From Magnetococcales bacterium (GTDB lineage: Bacteria; Pseudomonadota; Magnetococcia; Magnetococcales; DC0425bin3), in assembly GCA_015229045.1 (NCBI GenBank), contig JADGCJ010000201.1, forward strand, positions 1-5,405: a stretch of 5,405 nucleotides of DNA, written 5' to 3'. The notes under the pieces are model-generated. The model was not told where the DNA came from. It was given only the letters and a program-made list of their open reading frames with translations, and searched no databases. This document shows, piece by piece, positions 85 to 5,405 of the stretch. Numbering within the stretch: the stretch's first letter is position 1; each line of letters starts with the position of its first letter. The position numbers and the translations under genes were made by a program.

Positions 85-1497
85 TCACACCTCAAAGAGG
101 GTGGTGACACCCGAATCCCAGGCGTCCCAGAGAAAATCATTCTCCCTTCCATCGGCGATCACCCGGAAAGCATGGCGCACCAACTCCTCGTACAAACCGC
201 AAAAGGCCCCGGTTTTTTCCATGGCACCATTCATTTCATGCGCTTCGGCAGGACAGGGTGAACCACAATAGTGGCGGATGGCGCAGGTGTTGCACGGCGC
301 GAACCGTTCCACATCGCGCTGCGTCACCAGACGAAAAGGGGCACTTTGCAACACGGCTGGAATGTCATCCTGAAAAAGATTGCCGCCCCGGAAAGCATCC
401 AGGCCGATAAATTCACTGCACGGAAAGATATCACCACTGGCAGACACGGCAAAGAAAGCACGCCCGCCGCCACAAGGTGAGATGTCACACATGAGTCGCC
501 GCGCCGTAGGCGCGAGAATGGCCAGTAAAATATTGGCATAATTGGCCACCACCAGCTTGCGACCCGTGGCACGGTACAATTCGTGGGTGCGTTCCAGGGC
601 AGCCAGCAGGGCTTTTGCCAGCAGGGCGTCGTCGGGCTTGATACTCCTGGCTCCGGGCAGGGTACAACGCACCGGGTTGAGCAGGCAGGCCGGAACCTTC
701 ATGGTGTGCAACAGATCGACCAGGTCGATCAGACGATCCAGATTGCTGGCGGTGACCGTGGTGATGACACTCAAGGCCGGATAGTCGGCGAGCCGCCTCA
801 GAGAGTCGAGAACCGCCGCATGCACACTGCCGCCATTCCAGGCCGTGCGGGTGCGATCGGTCACCTCGGCCTCGGGACCATCCAAAGACAACCCGATGCT
901 GACACCACGGGAGGTCAGGAAATCGATGGCCGCATCATCCAGGAGCGTACTGTTGGTCTGGAGACCAAATTGAAAATCCTCCCGGAAAGCATCGATGCCG
1001 GGAAAAATGGCCGCCCGGTTCAGCAGGGGTTCGGCGCCATGGAAAATGATGCGCGGTTTACGCGCCTTGTCCCCCATGCTGGCGGCGAAGTAACGCTTCA
1101 GAAGATCCAGGGCCTGCACCAGACGCTCGCCGGACATGTGGGCGCCGTTGCGGCGCAGGTCGCCGGGAATATAGCAGTAGGTGCAGTCGAGGTTGCATCG
1201 ATCGGTGGCATTGAAATAGACCGCCGAGGGTTTCAAACCAAAGCGCAACTGCGCCATCTCATCCTGAAAACCCTGGCGCTGTCCCCGGTAGGCGTCGAGG
1301 AGGAGTTCCGGCTTGGCCAACACGTCGGCCAGACGCTCCTTTTGCACCAGAGACCAGAATGCCGTCTCCGGACCGAGCACCGCCATCCAGGTGGGGTGTT
1401 CAATGTCCAGAGGAATGAGCGACGGCCCATGGCCCGTGTTGAAAAAACGGCCAGACGAAGGGGCCTGGCCAATCGGAGAGTGAACCGTCGCTTCCAT
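85..1497 (-). CDS. cbpB: Radical SAM/SPASM peptide maturase, CbpB-like
   Basis: This 470-residue protein is a cytoplasmic radical SAM enzyme predicted to modify the small peptide encoded just upstream. The SAM-binding 4Fe-4S motif CNLDCTYC is at residues 101-108 (Cys101, Cys105, Cys108), preceded by a roughly 90-residue N-terminal extension. The usual GGEP motif appears as HGAEPLL (153-159), and SLDGP is at 204-208. The C-terminal SPASM domain shows C342...GDIFPC360, then C402-X2-C405-X5-C411-X3-C415-X17-C433, the layout that binds auxiliary Fe-S clusters. There is no N-terminal B12-binding domain, so cobalamin appears to regulate the gene rather than serve as its cofactor. The start codon directly follows the stop of the peptide gene, implying translational coupling; the only ribosome site is a weak AAAAGG inside that gene. 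The radical SAM/SPASM assignment is secure. The CbpB name rests on recall of the CbpA/CbpB pair and on context. The chemistry performed is unknown. Confidence 0.9.
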   Translation of the reverse strand: MEATVHSPIGQAPSSGRFFNTGHGPSLIPLDIEHPTWMAVLGPETAFWSLVQKERLADVLAKPELLLDAYRGQRQGFQDEMAQLRFGLKPSAVYFNATDRCNLDCTYCYIPGDLRRNGAHMSGERLVQALDLLKRYFAASMGDKARKPRIIFHGAEPLLNRAAIFPGIDAFREDFQFGLQTNSTLLDDAAIDFLTSRGVSIGLSLDGPEAEVTDRTRTAWNGGSVHAAVLDSLRRLADYPALSVITTVTASNLDRLIDLVDLLHTMKVPACLLNPVRCTLPGARSIKPDDALLAKALLAALERTHELYRATGRKLVVANYANILLAILAPTARRLMCDISPCGGGRAFFAVSASGDIFPCSEFIGLDAFRGGNLFQDDIPAVLQSAPFRLVTQRDVERFAPCNTCAIRHYCGSPCPAEAHEMNGAMEKTGAFCGLYEELVRHAFRVIADGRENDFLWDAWDSGVTTLFEV

Positions 1498-1635
1498 TTA
1501 CTTGGCCTTTTCGTCCATCAGGATGTAATGGGAGAGGCCAACGCCATCGGCGGTGCAGCTTTTGCGGACAGCTCGCACAGGTTGGTCGACGTTGATTTTT
1601 TTACTCTCCTGCTTCTTTTTCGGCTCTTGTTGCAT
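1498..1635 (-). CDS. cbpA: Small RiPP precursor peptide, CbpA-like (45 aa)
   Basis: This 45-codon gene was found by translating the gap between the terminator and the maturase gene. The product begins MQQEPKKKQESKK, a Lys-rich polar leader-like stretch. It ends with a core-like segment, CTADGVGLSHYILMDE (residues 28-43), then KAK, and has a single cysteine at position 28. Start support is good: AAGGAG at 1642-1647 lies six bases before the ATG at 1635. The stop TAA (1498-1500) is immediately followed by the maturase ATG. The size, the single Cys, the GVGLSHYILMD segment and the adjacent SPASM enzyme match what I recall of the modified peptide precursor CbpA. Expression should be controlled by the cobalamin riboswitch and terminator just upstream. 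There is no signal peptide or membrane segment, and no dedicated protease or exporter gene is visible. Which residues are modified cannot be told; Cys28, Tyr38 and the nearby aliphatic or Asp residues are candidates by position only. Confidence 0.82.
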   Translation of the reverse strand: MQQEPKKKQESKKINVDQPVRAVRKSCTADGVGLSHYILMDEKAK

Positions 1636-1641
1636 CGTCGT

Positions 1642-1647
1642 CTCCTT
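1642..1647 (-). promoter_or_regulatory. Ribosome binding site of cbpA
   Basis: The minus strand reads AAGGAG followed by the six-base spacer ACGACG and the ATG at 1635. It is a near-ideal Shine-Dalgarno sequence. It lies downstream of the intrinsic terminator, so it is made only in readthrough transcripts. It fixes the start of the 45-codon peptide. Confidence 0.8.
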
Positions 1648-1659
1648 CTTGGTGTTGAC

Positions 1660-1711
1660 AAAAAAAAAGGGCCTCGAAGGGCATGACAGCTCAGCCCCTC
1701 GAAACCCTTTT
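1660..1711 (-). terminator. Intrinsic terminator of the cobalamin riboswitch
   Basis: On the minus strand, GGGTTTCGAGGGGC (1694-1707) pairs with GCCCTTCGAGGCCC (1669-1682) as a continuous 14-bp stem that includes three G-U wobbles. The loop is 11 nt (1683-1693), and nine T follow (1660-1668). AAAA at 1708-1711 can extend the stem by pairing with the T run. The hairpin sits between the B12 box and the cbpA ribosome site, the position expected for a transcription-attenuation riboswitch rather than one that blocks translation. Confidence 0.9.
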
Positions 1712-1724
1712 CCATCGGATTTCG
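1700..1724 (-). promoter_or_regulatory. Predicted antiterminator helix
   Basis: On the minus strand, CGAAATCC (1717-1724) can pair over 8 bp with GGGTTTCG (1700-1707), leaving a 9-nt loop. The second arm is the outer part of the terminator's 5' arm, so antiterminator and terminator exclude each other. The first arm is also claimed by the putative closing stem of the aptamer. The pairings are seen directly in the sequence; the regulatory role is inferred. Confidence 0.6.
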
Positions 1725-1934
1725 TCTTTTCGACCCTGGCAGGTCTTCTGACTCACGGACGATGCACCGCGCATCCACCTTCCCCCCGGAATGAGTTCCA
1801 GGAGTGGCTGGGCATGGCCCCATGCGCAGGCGTTTTCCGTTTACAGCGGCGGGTCCGTCACGGAGTTGCACCGTGTTCCGGGATGCCAGGATCGCCTGTT
1901 TCCTGTTCGACGCTGCGGATCATAACAAAATCCG
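1716..1934 (-). ncRNA. Cobalamin (B12/AdoCbl) riboswitch aptamer
   Basis: This is a cis-acting RNA that senses cobalamin. On the minus strand, the B12 box GTCAGAAGACCTGCC lies at 1738-1752, close to the consensus GCCAGGAGACCTGCC. Upstream of it are CGGTGCAACTCCGTGACGG (about 1855-1873), CCGCCGCTGTAAACGG (about 1837-1852) and GCCACT...GGGGGGAAGG (about 1779-1807). These match the order of conserved blocks in the cobalamin class, including E. coli btuB. The outer boundary is set by a possible 9-bp closing stem, CGGATTTTG (1926-1934) with CGAAATCCG (1716-1724). The expression platform is the terminator at 1660-1711, followed by cbpA and cbpB, so cobalamin is predicted to repress the peptide operon. 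Identification of the class is firm. The exact 5' end and the subtype (adenosyl- or aquo-/methylcobalamin) are not determined. Confidence 0.92.
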
Positions 1935-2177: not shown

Positions 2178-4301
2178 TCATCCACTGACCCTGGCTGTGC
2201 GATGAACCCTGGCACGTGCCTGTTTCAGAGGGATGACGAGCGGTTGATTGGTTTTCAACCCGACGGGCAGTCGGGCGACAAACGCCTCGGCCTCCTTGTG
2301 GCTGGAGAACTCATCCAGATAGATGAGCAGGCGGTCGTCGCGCAAGCGGACGACATTCAGGCGTTTGTTGCCAATCTGGGATTGCAAGGCGGCGAGATCC
2401 TTTTCCAGGGTCGCGAACCCGTCATCGTGGGACAACATCATCAGCTGGATGGTGAAGTGTTCGTCATCGCCGGTTTCGATCCAGATATGCGCGGCGATGA
2501 TCCTGTCTGCCAGGGGATCCTCTTTTTTCAGGTAGGGATAATTCTGTTTCGGGTCGGGCTGCCACTCCGGCTCCGTCCCGGCATCGTTGTGTGGCGCTTT
2601 TCCGGATGAGTCCGCCGCAAGGAATTTTCCCTGGGCGGTGTCGGTTTTCCGGAGATCCTTGGGAGAGGATGATTTCTCCCCTGCGGGGGGACGTTCACCA
2701 CCGCCTACGCTGGCCAACATGATGTCATCCGTCGTCGGCAACTCCAGCTGATCCGCCAGAAGCCGCGCCCCATCTTGACCTGATTTGAGGCCACTTGCGC
2801 GGTCTTGCCCACTTTTCGCTTCATTTTTGCCTGCAACCTTGTCGGGTATCGCATCCCCCTTTTTTTCGCGAGCGTCCGCTGTCGTTCCCGAGGTTTGATC
2901 GCTCTTGCCGATTGCCTTGTTGGCTGCATTGTCGGGCATCTGTTCAATTTTGCCGACTTTGTGGTCGGCGACCTTTTCTGCTGCCTTGTCGGGCTTGCCG
3001 GTGGACTTGTCGGCGATCTTGTCGGATTTTTGCGCGGTATTGCCAATGGTTTTGTCGGCGACCTTCGCGGTTTTCGGCCCGATGGCGGGTTCGTTTTTGT
3101 CGGCGGCGGCTTTGGATTTCAGGTCACTTTTTTTGTCGCCCGTTTTTGCGTTGACCTGTGCGACTTCTCCGCTCTTCTGCTCACCCGCTTTTTTCTCACT
3201 CTCTTTTATCACTGCGGCAGATTTTTGCCCGGCCACGGAATCCTGTCCAGAAATCCTGGTTTCGGGATGAAGGGCAGCGCCATCCGACACAGGGGTCGCA
3301 CTCTGGGGGAAGGAAGGAGTGGCGGAGGAGTTTTTATCCAGGGATTGCCCTGCCGGGGCTTCCGGAGTCAAAAAGCCTTTCGGCAACATGCGCGGGGTGT
3401 TGCCCCAGGAGTGCAGCGCCGTCCCCCCGACCAGCATGACCGCCAGGGTACTGGCCAGCAGGACAGGCCGTTGCCACAGATGGGTGACTGCCGGTGGCAG
3501 ATCGTTGGAGACCATGGCCGTCCGCACATGGCGCACACCCACGGCCTGGGAAGCATCGGAAAAAGCTGCGATCAGCGCCTTGTGCGCCAGAACATTGAGT
3601 CGTCTGAAACTTCCCCTGGATGCCCGATGCAAAAACCAGACGGCCCCTTTGGTAAAAACCCTCTCGTCGGGATCGCCGGTGGCTTCCAGGCGACTTTGCA
3701 GATAGTGACCCGTCTCCTTGAGTGTCAAGGGTACCAGGTGAAGTGTGGTCGACATGCGTTCGAGGAGTTGTCTGTTCGAGGGGTTGGCCAGGATGCGCGT
3801 CAACTCCGGCTGCCCAAACAGGACGATCTGAAACAGTTTGGTACGGGAGGTCTCGAAATTGCTCAACAGGCGCAACTCTTCCAGAGCGGCCATGGGCATG
3901 CACTGGGCCTCTTCGACCAGTACCAGGGCGTTGCGACCGTTGCGATGCAGATCAACCAGATGGTTCAGAAGAAGATGCTGGTCCGCCCAGCGGTCACCGG
4001 AGGGACCAGGCGACACCCTGAACTCCCGCAGGATGGAGGCAACGACCTGCTCCGGCGGAATGTTCGGGTTCAGGAGTATGGCAACATCGACCGTTTTGGA
4101 GAGGCGCTGGCACAAGGTCCGGCAAAGCATGGTTTTGCCGCTGCCCGTCTCGCCCGTCACCCTGATGATTCCCTCGCCGGCCTGAATGGCCCGCTGGAGC
4201 TCTTCCAGGATCTCGTCCCGGCCTCCCCCGCCGTAGAACAGCTCCGTATCCGGTGTCAAGGAGAAGGGGTGCCGCTGCAACTTGAAGTGGTTCAGATACA
4301 T
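2178..4301 (-). CDS. ExeA/DamX-like AAA+ ATPase with membrane helix and C-terminal SPOR-like domain
   Basis: This 707-residue protein starts MYLNHFKLQRHPFSLTPD, the typical opening of ExeA/GspA/MshM-type ATPases. Walker A is GETGSGKT (50-57), a Walker B-like VLVEEAQ is at 127-133, and the family's LFGQPEL is at 161-167. A single hydrophobic helix (about 279-297) should anchor it in the inner membrane with the ATPase in the cytoplasm. Residues about 370-515 form a Lys/Asp/Ala-rich linker of degenerate ADK and GK units. The C-terminal part (about 613-695) resembles SPOR domains, beginning HFTIQL and ending with EAEAFVARLP...PLKQARA, close in style to the end of DamX. SPOR domains bind denuded septal peptidoglycan, so a role in division or envelope assembly is likely; type II secretion or pilus assembly is the alternative. 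The ATG at 4301 is preceded only by a weak GGTGGTG. No partner genes flank it. Confidence 0.85.
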   Translation of the reverse strand: MYLNHFKLQRHPFSLTPDTELFYGGGGRDEILEELQRAIQAGEGIIRVTGETGSGKTMLCRTLCQRLSKTVDVAILLNPNIPPEQVVASILREFRVSPGPSGDRWADQHLLLNHLVDLHRNGRNALVLVEEAQCMPMAALEELRLLSNFETSRTKLFQIVLFGQPELTRILANPSNRQLLERMSTTLHLVPLTLKETGHYLQSRLEATGDPDERVFTKGAVWFLHRASRGSFRRLNVLAHKALIAAFSDASQAVGVRHVRTAMVSNDLPPAVTHLWQRPVLLASTLAVMLVGGTALHSWGNTPRMLPKGFLTPEAPAGQSLDKNSSATPSFPQSATPVSDGAALHPETRISGQDSVAGQKSAAVIKESEKKAGEQKSGEVAQVNAKTGDKKSDLKSKAAADKNEPAIGPKTAKVADKTIGNTAQKSDKIADKSTGKPDKAAEKVADHKVGKIEQMPDNAANKAIGKSDQTSGTTADAREKKGDAIPDKVAGKNEAKSGQDRASGLKSGQDGARLLADQLELPTTDDIMLASVGGGERPPAGEKSSSPKDLRKTDTAQGKFLAADSSGKAPHNDAGTEPEWQPDPKQNYPYLKKEDPLADRIIAAHIWIETGDDEHFTIQLMMLSHDDGFATLEKDLAALQSQIGNKRLNVVRLRDDRLLIYLDEFSSHKEAEAFVARLPVGLKTNQPLVIPLKQARARVHRTARVSG
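2757..3170 (-). repeat. Degenerate repeats encoding the Lys/Asp-rich periplasmic linker
   Basis: This segment encodes residues about 378-515 of the ATPase/SPOR protein and is built from imperfect copies of a short unit. At DNA level the plus-strand text GTCGGCG-A-(C/T)CTT recurs at about 2964-2974, 3009-3020 and 3054-3064, with further TTGTCGG remnants between. At protein level it gives repeated K-x-A-D-K and G-K-x-D-(K/Q) words such as KVADKTIG, KIADKSTGK and KVADHKVGK. Very low complexity and strong charge point to a disordered, cell-wall-spanning tether that may vary in length. Confidence 0.65.
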
Positions 4302-4509: not shown

Positions 4510-4911
4510 TCACTCTTTCAAGATATTGATGGCCAGCTTTGGTGCAACGCAGGTCAGACGGTTGTCATTGGTCCAAAATTCCGTGCAACCGTGGACCATG
4601 GCCGTTGCCAGGTGCAAGGCGTCCGGAACCCTCAGGCCGTAGTCAGTACGCAGGCCAAGAGCCGTGTCAAACACCTCTTCCGGCATGGTCAACATGCGCA
4701 GCGACGCGAGATATTGACGAAATTGCCGAATGGTTGCCGTGTCGCGATCCCTGATGGGTTTGACCAACACCTCCAGGGGTACCAAGGGCGACATGGACAT
4801 GACATCACGCGCATGCCCGGCCATGGCTTGGCGAAGCGTGGCCGCGTAGACAGGATGACGTTCGACCAGATAGATGACGATACACGAATCCAGGCAGATT
4901 AACGCCATCAT
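4510..4911 (-). CDS. vapC: VapC-type PIN-domain toxin
   Basis: This 133-residue protein is a PIN-domain ribonuclease, the toxin of a type II pair. Such enzymes cut RNA (tRNA or rRNA in studied VapCs) using Mg2+ or Mn2+ held by acidic residues. The expected residues are present: Asp8 in ICLDSC, Glu47 in PLVPLEVLVKP, Asp97 in VPDALHLATA and Asp116 in TNDNRL. The set is complete, so the toxin looks active. The length is normal for the family. The start at 4911 overlaps the antitoxin stop as ATGA; a second in-frame ATG follows immediately (4908) and would shorten the protein by only one residue. It is translated from the antitoxin's mRNA and should be neutralised by that protein. The RNA target cannot be inferred from sequence. 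Confidence 0.88.
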   Translation of the reverse strand: MMALICLDSCIVIYLVERHPVYAATLRQAMAGHARDVMSMSPLVPLEVLVKPIRDRDTATIRQFRQYLASLRMLTMPEEVFDTALGLRTDYGLRVPDALHLATAMVHGCTEFWTNDNRLTCVAPKLAINILKE

Positions 4912-5261
4912 TTTTCCCAGGCGCGTCGATTGCTCTGGATGATCTCTTCCATCTCTTCCGGAGTTCGACAGGGAGGTCTTTGAAACTCGGCGGAGTTCAG
5001 CAAGGCCAGAATCTGCTCTACCTGGCCTGTCGCAACAGACTCCTTTTTTGTCAGGTCAAAATCGGGGGTTTCCATCAGCAACCCCTTCAGACGACCCGGC
5101 TTTCTCATGCCCAAGGCTGGTGCCAGTGTCAATGGGTCCAGAGGGACCAGCCGCGCCTGTGGAACGCCGCTTTCAGCGATGATGATCTCTTCGCCATGGG
5201 CAGCGCGGCGGACCAGTTCGGCAAGGTTGGTGCTGGCATCGGACAGATTGACGTGTTCCAT
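4908..5261 (-). CDS. vapB: Phd/YefM-like antitoxin of the VapC pair
   Basis: This is a 117-residue antitoxin. The N-terminus, MEHVNLSDASTNLAELV then RRAAHGEEIIIAESG and PQARLVPL (1-41), is the classic Phd/YefM DNA-binding fold that dimerises and represses its own promoter. A linker with KPGRLKGLL and PDFDL follows, then a C-terminal part (about 75-117) ending RTPEEMEEIIQSNRRAWEK that should wrap the toxin. I place the start at 5261 because GGAGG (5271-5275) lies nine bases upstream and the Phd fold begins there. An upstream in-frame ATG at 5324 would add 21 residues unlike the family. The tail is longer than in most Phd-type partners of VapC, which usually end soon after the DFD motif. The stop overlaps the toxin start by four bases, as expected for coupled expression with antitoxin first. 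Confidence 0.85.
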   Translation of the reverse strand: MEHVNLSDASTNLAELVRRAAHGEEIIIAESGVPQARLVPLDPLTLAPALGMRKPGRLKGLLMETPDFDLTKKESVATGQVEQILALLNSAEFQRPPCRTPEEMEEIIQSNRRAWEK

Positions 5262-5270
5262 GGGGCGACA

Positions 5271-5275
5271 CCTCC
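5271..5275 (-). promoter_or_regulatory. Ribosome binding site that sets the antitoxin start
   Basis: The minus strand reads GGAGG, then nine bases, then the ATG at 5261. No comparable site precedes the upstream ATG at 5324, so this favours the 117-residue form. Confidence 0.65.
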
Positions 5276-5295
5276 AAAGCATGGGAGTTTGCACG

Positions 5296-5324
5296 AGGCT
5301 ACCATGTTCGGGCCGTGCTTCCAA
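5296..5324 (-). promoter_or_regulatory. Weak candidate promoter of the toxin-antitoxin operon
   Basis: On the minus strand, TTGGAA (5319-5324) and TAGCCT (5296-5301) are separated by 17 bases, placing a start site about 25-30 bases before the antitoxin ATG. The spacing is ideal but both boxes match the sigma-70 consensus only partly. Autorepression by the Phd-like antitoxin would be expected here; no convincing operator palindrome was seen. Confidence 0.25.
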
Positions 5325-5343
5325 GCGCCCTGTGTCCAGAGCA

Positions 5344-5365
5344 GGGCAACCGCATTTGAAATTGG
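5344..5365 (+). repeat. Third copy of the GGGCAA(T/C)CGCATTTGAAA motif
   Basis: GGGCAACCGCATTTGAAATTGG differs from the copy at 2144-2165 at two positions and has the same orientation as the copy at 1960. It sits upstream of the toxin-antitoxin operon and runs toward the right edge of the window, so it may be the left end of an element that continues beyond the window, or another member of a dispersed intergenic motif. Confidence 0.55.
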
Positions 5366-5405
5366 CATGCTTGAAAAATCGGACCTTGAACCGCGTTTAT
5401 TTTGC

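Follow-up and report, generated by a model that had tools for sequence, protein, structure and literature searches.

Organization of the cbpAB locus

The window, that is the whole 5,405-nt stretch of DNA analysed, carries on its minus strand a cobalamin riboswitch and a transcription terminator, followed by the gene for a short peptide and by that for a radical SAM/SPASM maturase. This order had been proposed in an earlier note on the same DNA, whose coordinates, 1498-1934, take in the aptamer, the terminator and cbpA, with cbpB lying outside; the names CbpA and CbpB suggested there are also right. The gene cbpA (1498..1635, -) is an open reading frame for a 45-aa precursor peptide, scoring 51.5 bits with TIGR04164 (cut-off 35); the range of this match, along with conservation, defines a block of 25 residues, 20-44 (1504..1578, -). 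The start codon of cbpB (85..1497, -) immediately follows the cbpA stop codon, and its 470-aa product scores 666.2 bits with TIGR04163 (cut-off 375). Pfam domains Radical_SAM (PF04055) and SPASM (PF13186) are both found in CbpB over cut-off, and the cysteines of the CxxxCxxC motif, C101, C105 and C108, are invariant in an alignment of 21 CbpB sequences. Since both products pass the family cut-offs, the window pair is, by sequence, a new member of the existing NCBIfam pair CbpA/CbpB.

The closest proteins to those of the window, with 87% and 83% identity, are from Magnetococcus or other Magnetococcales. CbpA, used as a protein query, matched only four records, the window included; we think that its variable N-terminus limits word matches. 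A set of 36 distant radical SAM proteins from viral contigs, with 20-37% identity, was set aside.

The riboswitch aptamer (1721..1905, -) is recognized by Rfam cmscan as a full-length RF00174, covering model positions 1-189 of 189, and scores 65.9 bits (gathering score 31.5; E 4e-15): the covariance model thereby bears out the B12 aptamer claimed earlier from inspection. The terminator (1658..1712, -), also anticipated, is predicted as a stem, 1712-1664, followed by a U tract down to about 1658; folded alone, the hairpin reaches -34.1 kcal/mol. A simple terminator scan of the window does not report the 1712-1664 hairpin, our guess being that a bulge in the folded stem is the reason. An RF00489 match over the terminator (25.6 bits, below the cut-off of 50) was discarded as due to chance. 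When the 3' arm of the terminator is blocked, folding produces another hairpin (1700..1724, -), of eight pairs (1724-1717 with 1707-1700), and the two structures are mutually exclusive. Its modelled behavior suggests a possible role as antiterminator. As it takes part of the 5' arm of the terminator, a B12-responsive attenuation off-switch ahead of cbpA is plausible from structure, and the repression by B12 put forward in the earlier note agrees with the prediction from the folded leader. A Shine-Dalgarno-like AGGAG, read from the sequence, is located upstream of cbpA (1642..1646, -). A promoter scan of the window gave two hits, with 1.8 expected, and no promoter is claimed.

As judged by NCBIfam and Pfam, no B12 gene lies beside the cbpAB unit in the window, and the other window genes have no B12 link. 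Immediately upstream of the riboswitch, 172 nt are bracketed by a 24-nt inverted repeat (83%; 1953-1976 and 2149-2172), another copy of which occurs towards the end of the window (5341-5372); the arrangement resembles a small mobile element or a palindromic one. At 2178-4301 (-) a 707-aa AAA ATPase (AAA_22) with a long Lys-rich linker is encoded, which scores 189.5 bits with TIGR03015, below the cut-off of 324.5. At 4510-5324 (-) the gene of a PIN-domain protein overlaps a Phd/YefM antitoxin gene, as in an ordinary toxin-antitoxin pair.

Conservation of the riboswitch and terminator

Relatives were collected by a CbpB alignment search of genome contigs. The best 80 of 423 loci, from 78 genomes, were retained, so that the sample leans towards close relatives; most genome records are MAGs, and the 80 loci span about ten phyla, according to our own labels. 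Isolates with the unit include Azospira oryzae DSM 21223 (L084) and Blastochloris sulfoviridis DSM 729 (L041). In the 78 genomes searched, 63 of the 80 loci have an RF00174 match that precedes the CbpB match by 193-832 nt and shares its strand. A check of contigs against the cbpA core upheld 62 of these 63 as matched; for the remaining locus, L098, the correct contig carries a different riboswitch, at 498 nt. A B12-box pattern (at most two mismatches) is present in the locus DNA of 59 of the 63 switch-bearing loci and of none of the other 17. Since the genomes contain on average 2.8 cobalamin riboswitches, their placement before cbpAB is not due to chance.

Between the aptamer and the cbpA core, a terminator-like hairpin is found in 59 of the 63 relatives with a switch, compared with 7-13 in ten rounds of dinucleotide shuffling (for L098, the shuffled stretch was taken beside the riboswitch on the different contig). 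B12-repressed transcription is accordingly the predicted shared design, and the sequences make it very likely that cbpAB is repressed through its riboswitch, the response to the ligand being a prediction. The earlier note had regarded such control of a peptide operon as rare: this was overstated, the riboswitch being the rule inside the CbpA/CbpB family. In five loci (L056, L057, L060, L088, L107), an additional cobalamin riboswitch lies 452-602 nt upstream on the same contig but on the other strand, so that cbpAB diverges there from another B12-switched unit.

The CbpA core

The block adjoins cbpB in the window and in 79 of the 80 loci, the exception being L110, which is cut. Its core, RKxCxxxGxGLSHY, is nearly fixed, with some built-in bias, as the block model was seeded by a pattern already containing the conserved residues. 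Numbering from the cysteine, R-3, C0, G4, G6, L7, S8 and H9 are identical in all 83 canonical cores, K-2 is found in 77 and Y10 in 80 (Phe in the others), while D3 is present in only 40. The stop codon is mostly located 22-23 residues beyond R. The part preceding the block is variable, from 7 to 54 residues under a heuristic choice of start codons; by the same choice, L098, L093, L073, L069 and L085 have no more than 7-10 residues ahead of the RK pair, and in L043 a GTG is located four residues ahead. Two blocks each are found in L039, L043 and L050. Throughout the 78 genomes, no core was found away from cbpB loci.

Genomic context

Names were given to neighbouring gene clusters on the basis of 40 representative proteins (NCBIfam, Pfam), which are part of all neighbours. 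Among the named clusters are CbiG, CobQ/CobD, CobT, CbiB, CobB, CbiD, CobA, CobS, CobU, CbiL and CobC, along with BtuF- and BtuC-like proteins, CbiM, CbiQ, CbiK and TonB receptors. The cbpAB family is in this way linked genomically to cobamide assembly or uptake genes. At least one of 12 chosen marker B12 genes is located within 8 kb in 29 of the 80 loci and none in the other 51, counts that are limited by the many loci ending early at contig ends. In L111, whose gene clusters are named by representatives, cbpAB is part of a riboswitch-headed run with CobU, CobT, CobS, CbiB, CobD, BtuFCD-like and TonB genes.

Some neighbours are reported here as separate observations. Asparagine-synthase-like (PF00733) and diphthamide-synthase-like (PF01902) genes lie beside cbpAB within the B12 operon of L111 (6860-7783 and 9505-10173), and similar clusters occur in L064, L092, L095 and L130 (by BLAST clustering; those of L111 by Pfam); an involvement in the amidation of corrinoids is possible. 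An MttB-like corrinoid methyltransferase is encoded in L107 (9422-11299; 260.8 bits, below the cut-off of 525), with a related gene in L113; in Aromatoleum a betaine/BCCT transporter gene accompanies the MttB-like gene beside cbpB.

The 17 loci that lack a switch of their own differ from the 63 switch-bearing ones: a marker B12 gene is present within 8 kb in 14 of the former and in 15 of the latter (Fisher 1.7e-5, kinship being ignored). For L074 and L110, less than 250 nt are available upstream. In five of nine rescanned loci (L054, L058, L090, L106, L111) a riboswitch is found further upstream on the same strand, and in the other four (L085, L091, L094, L104) the fetched DNA contains none that exceeds the gathering score. 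No riboswitch is detected, even at E 0.05, in L068, L100, L082 and L064, and L092 features only a sub-threshold AdoCbl match ahead of a TonB gene. Neither a switch nor, among the 12 markers within 8 kb, a B12 gene is present in L068, L085 and L100.

Plasmid pHY1 of Methylovirgula, the only plasmid record found with (annotated) cbpAB, is a counter-example to the B12 link: the pair is located near pqqADE, a Crp/Fnr regulator and the heavy-metal RND pump CusA/CzcA, and the plasmid contains no cobalamin riboswitch, none appearing up to E 5 in 8300-10050. RND pump and adaptor genes are seen near cbpAB on this plasmid (L133, 17677-21374) and also in L045, L065 and L086, two of which are from Nitrospinales.

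Co-occurrence with corrin synthesis and cobamide assembly

In the 78 cbpB genomes, CbiD is found over cut-off in 46, CbiC in 51, CobN in 3, CobS in 67 and BluB in 21. A tie of cbpAB to the aerobic chelatase was therefore rejected, CobN being over cut-off in only 3 of the 78. In 25 genomes there is no match to CbiC or CbiD and no CobN over cut-off; 17 of them have CobS, and the other 8 show none of these four. The genome of L111, a single-chromosome record, has zero CbiC or CbiD candidates.

A separate sample of 145 Omnitrophota genomes contains CbpB over cut-off in 17 (lowest accepted score 461.6 bits, next 119.5), CobS in 56, CobT in 53 and CbiC in 7. CobS is present in all 17 cbpB genomes and in 39 of the 128 others (p 1.7e-8; this and the following Fisher test ignore kinship); CobT, too, is found in all 17, and in 13 of them CobS lies at most 5.5 kb from cbpB. 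Of the 39 genomes with CobS that lack CbpB, 36 keep CobT: cbpAB thus seems dispensable for cobamide assembly and, as most Omnitrophota with CobS and CobT do without it, is to be considered accessory.

CbiC, a marker of corrin synthesis, is missing in 11 of the 17 cbpB Omnitrophota, which in MAGs may reflect missing sequence, and some of them are on this ground probably salvagers. Within the genomes featuring CobS, on the other hand, CbpB is found in 6 of the 7 corrin makers (CbiC) against 11 of the 49 others (p 0.002), an enrichment that leans towards synthesis over salvage.

Ten more loci were fetched from cbpB Omnitrophota; as every one of them belongs to the 13 genomes in which CobS lies near cbpB, selection accounts in part for their B12 context. 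All ten contain a CbpA-like core beside CbpB and an RF00174 match. In six loci (L123, L124, L126, L127, L131, L132), which lie in B12 operons, the precursor is divergent, SYRxKCxxxxxGLSH[YF], with R, C, G6, L, S and H at conserved spacing, G4 absent in five of the six and Phe in place of Tyr in three. These precursors score 14.5-22.9 bits with TIGR04164, below the cut-off of 35, while the adjacent CbpB scores 461.9-505.8 bits in the three of the six that were tested.

Proposed role of cbpAB

The conservation of both regulation and gene pair far exceeds chance, and cbpAB fits cobamide supply rather than antibiosis. Switch, terminator, gene pair, their conservation and the genomic link to B12 genes are established at the sequence level; it is probable, from these, that cbpAB belongs to the cobamide supply pathway. 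The conserved riboswitch design and the adjacent B12 supply genes fit an action under B12 shortage, which the earlier note had suggested for the peptide. Scavenging, one of the roles it offered, would fit as well; of a signal, or of a substitute for a B12 function, there is no sign.

The following course of events may be envisaged. With adenosylcobalamin or a related cobamide in ample supply, the aptamer would fold and the terminator would halt transcription ahead of cbpA; when cobamide is scarce, the leader would be read through, and CbpA and CbpB would be produced. CbpB, using SAM radical chemistry, would modify the conserved block of CbpA, most likely by forming a cross-link from its sole conserved Cys. 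The block would itself be recognised and would probably also be the product, little or no leader being removed. The modified peptide would then stay inside the cell, where it may help makers to complete, and salvagers to get, their B12. Our best guess, a tentative one, is that it handles corrinoids, binding them or handing them over, its invariant Cys and His being placed close to the cobalt. Taken as a whole, the reading of cbpAB as a B12-repressed accessory unit of cobamide supply, whose modified peptide may handle corrinoids, has in our opinion slightly less than an even chance of being right.

The best placed alternative, which we regard as doubtful, is that modified CbpA is a metallophore or chaperone binding cobalt and feeding it to corrin synthesis. 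A cobalt chaperone was our first idea, from gene order in L104 and L106; in these loci, as in L058 and L094, cbpAB adjoins genes for CbiK, a CbiX/CfbA-type chelatase or CbiM. The enrichment of CbpB in corrin makers within CobS-bearing Omnitrophota and the Cys and His of the core agree with this idea, and cobalt transport is among the known classes of cobalamin-riboswitch targets listed in PMC3766115. Genomes devoid of CbiC and CbiD weaken it: having no corrin-synthesis markers, they should need no cobalt for corrin, missing sequence being possible for the MAGs, yet cbpAB is kept in the 25 genomes without CbiC, CbiD and CobN over cut-off, 17 of them with CobS, and in the 11 Omnitrophota without CbiC, including a single-chromosome record with zero CbiC or CbiD candidates. 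In genomes where cbpAB persists in this way, one of them a single-chromosome record, its function is not likely to be limited to cobalt insertion. This persistence, together with accessory status, favours, at modest confidence, a corrinoid-handling peptide, with cobalt handling next.

PQQ and mycofactocin are cofactors cut from peptides, and CbpA might similarly be cut to a small molecule, for instance a redox cofactor that serves to reduce cobalt, or the lower-ligand base used by CobT. We consider this improbable. The precursor is near-fixed and single-copy, cobT follows cbpB in L059, L067, L069 and L072, and BluB is over cut-off in only 21 of the 78 genomes; against this, BluB and cbpAB do occur together in those 21, CobT is found in 36 of the 39 CobS-bearing Omnitrophota without CbpB, Phe replaces Tyr in 3 of 83 canonical and 3 of 6 divergent cores, and no peptidase is found among the 40 annotated neighbour proteins, which are part of the neighbours. 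As for the supply of a lower ligand, neither the BluB nor the CobT counts decide.

More improbable still is a product replacing a B12-dependent function, in the manner of the riboswitch-controlled B12-independent isozymes, another target class given in PMC3766115: the 51 of 80 loci without marker B12 genes nearby would be in keeping with it, but cbpAB sits within B12 assembly operons and its overlap with CobS in Omnitrophota is complete. A secreted signalling or antimicrobial RiPP, such as radical SAM/SPASM maturases often yield, is very unlikely, since the core is near-fixed across about ten phyla and found solely at maturase loci, and since, besides CbpB, no neighbour cluster is present in more than 14 of the 80 loci, which leaves no constant exporter.

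In its most specific form, which is again no better than tentative, the corrinoid-handling reading describes CbpA as a near-leaderless, cross-linked, intracellular carrier or axial ligand of corrinoid (or cobalt), a missing B12-repressed component that would serve both the assembly and the salvage of cobamides in about ten phyla. If this holds, B12 metabolism would include a peptide-based component, a radical SAM pair with no described function would be placed in cobamide supply under B12 limitation, and a radical SAM substrate would be found to carry its own recognition block in place of a leader. The B12 pathway maps known to us have no peptide-based component, and CbpA would then be, to our knowledge, the first RiPP-like peptide serving B12 metabolism.

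Comparison with known systems

Among the open-licence papers searched we found none on the CbpA/CbpB pair, none joining a cobalamin riboswitch with RiPP and radical SAM, and none on cobalamin riboswitches in Omnitrophota. The NCBIfam short names, cobo_pep and rSAM_cobopep, suggest, as names only, that their authors had already tied the pair to cobalamin.

Like other RF00174 riboswitches, that of the window is composed of a full-length aptamer, followed by a terminator, ahead of the genes. The target is different: a peptide and its maturase fall outside the four classes of cobalamin regulon (B12 synthesis, transport of B12 or precursors, cobalt transport, isozymes) given by Sun et al. 2013 (PMC3766115), the main text of which does not contain the word 'radical'.

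After its own family, CbpB is best matched in NCBIfam by the PapB-type ranthipeptide maturases (NF047865), which are likewise radical SAM enzymes with a SPASM region, but its score, 139.4 bits, is well below the cut-off of 340. In a further difference from PapB-type systems, the CbpA cores hold a single conserved Cys, with Asp at +3 present in just 40 of the 83. The best solved relative of CbpB is PDB 5wgg (106.4 bits), which we take to be CteB.

With the PQQ and mycofactocin systems, cbpAB shares a conserved peptide and a radical SAM enzyme serving cofactor metabolism, while differing from them in that no cofactor-excising companion enzymes are seen among the 40 annotated neighbours. From the NCBIfam pair CbpA/CbpB, finally, the window departs in nothing, as the same curated cut-offs are passed and the gene order is that of the relatives; these additionally feature near-leaderless precursors, tandem cores and, in Omnitrophota, a divergent precursor scoring below the TIGR04164 cut-off.
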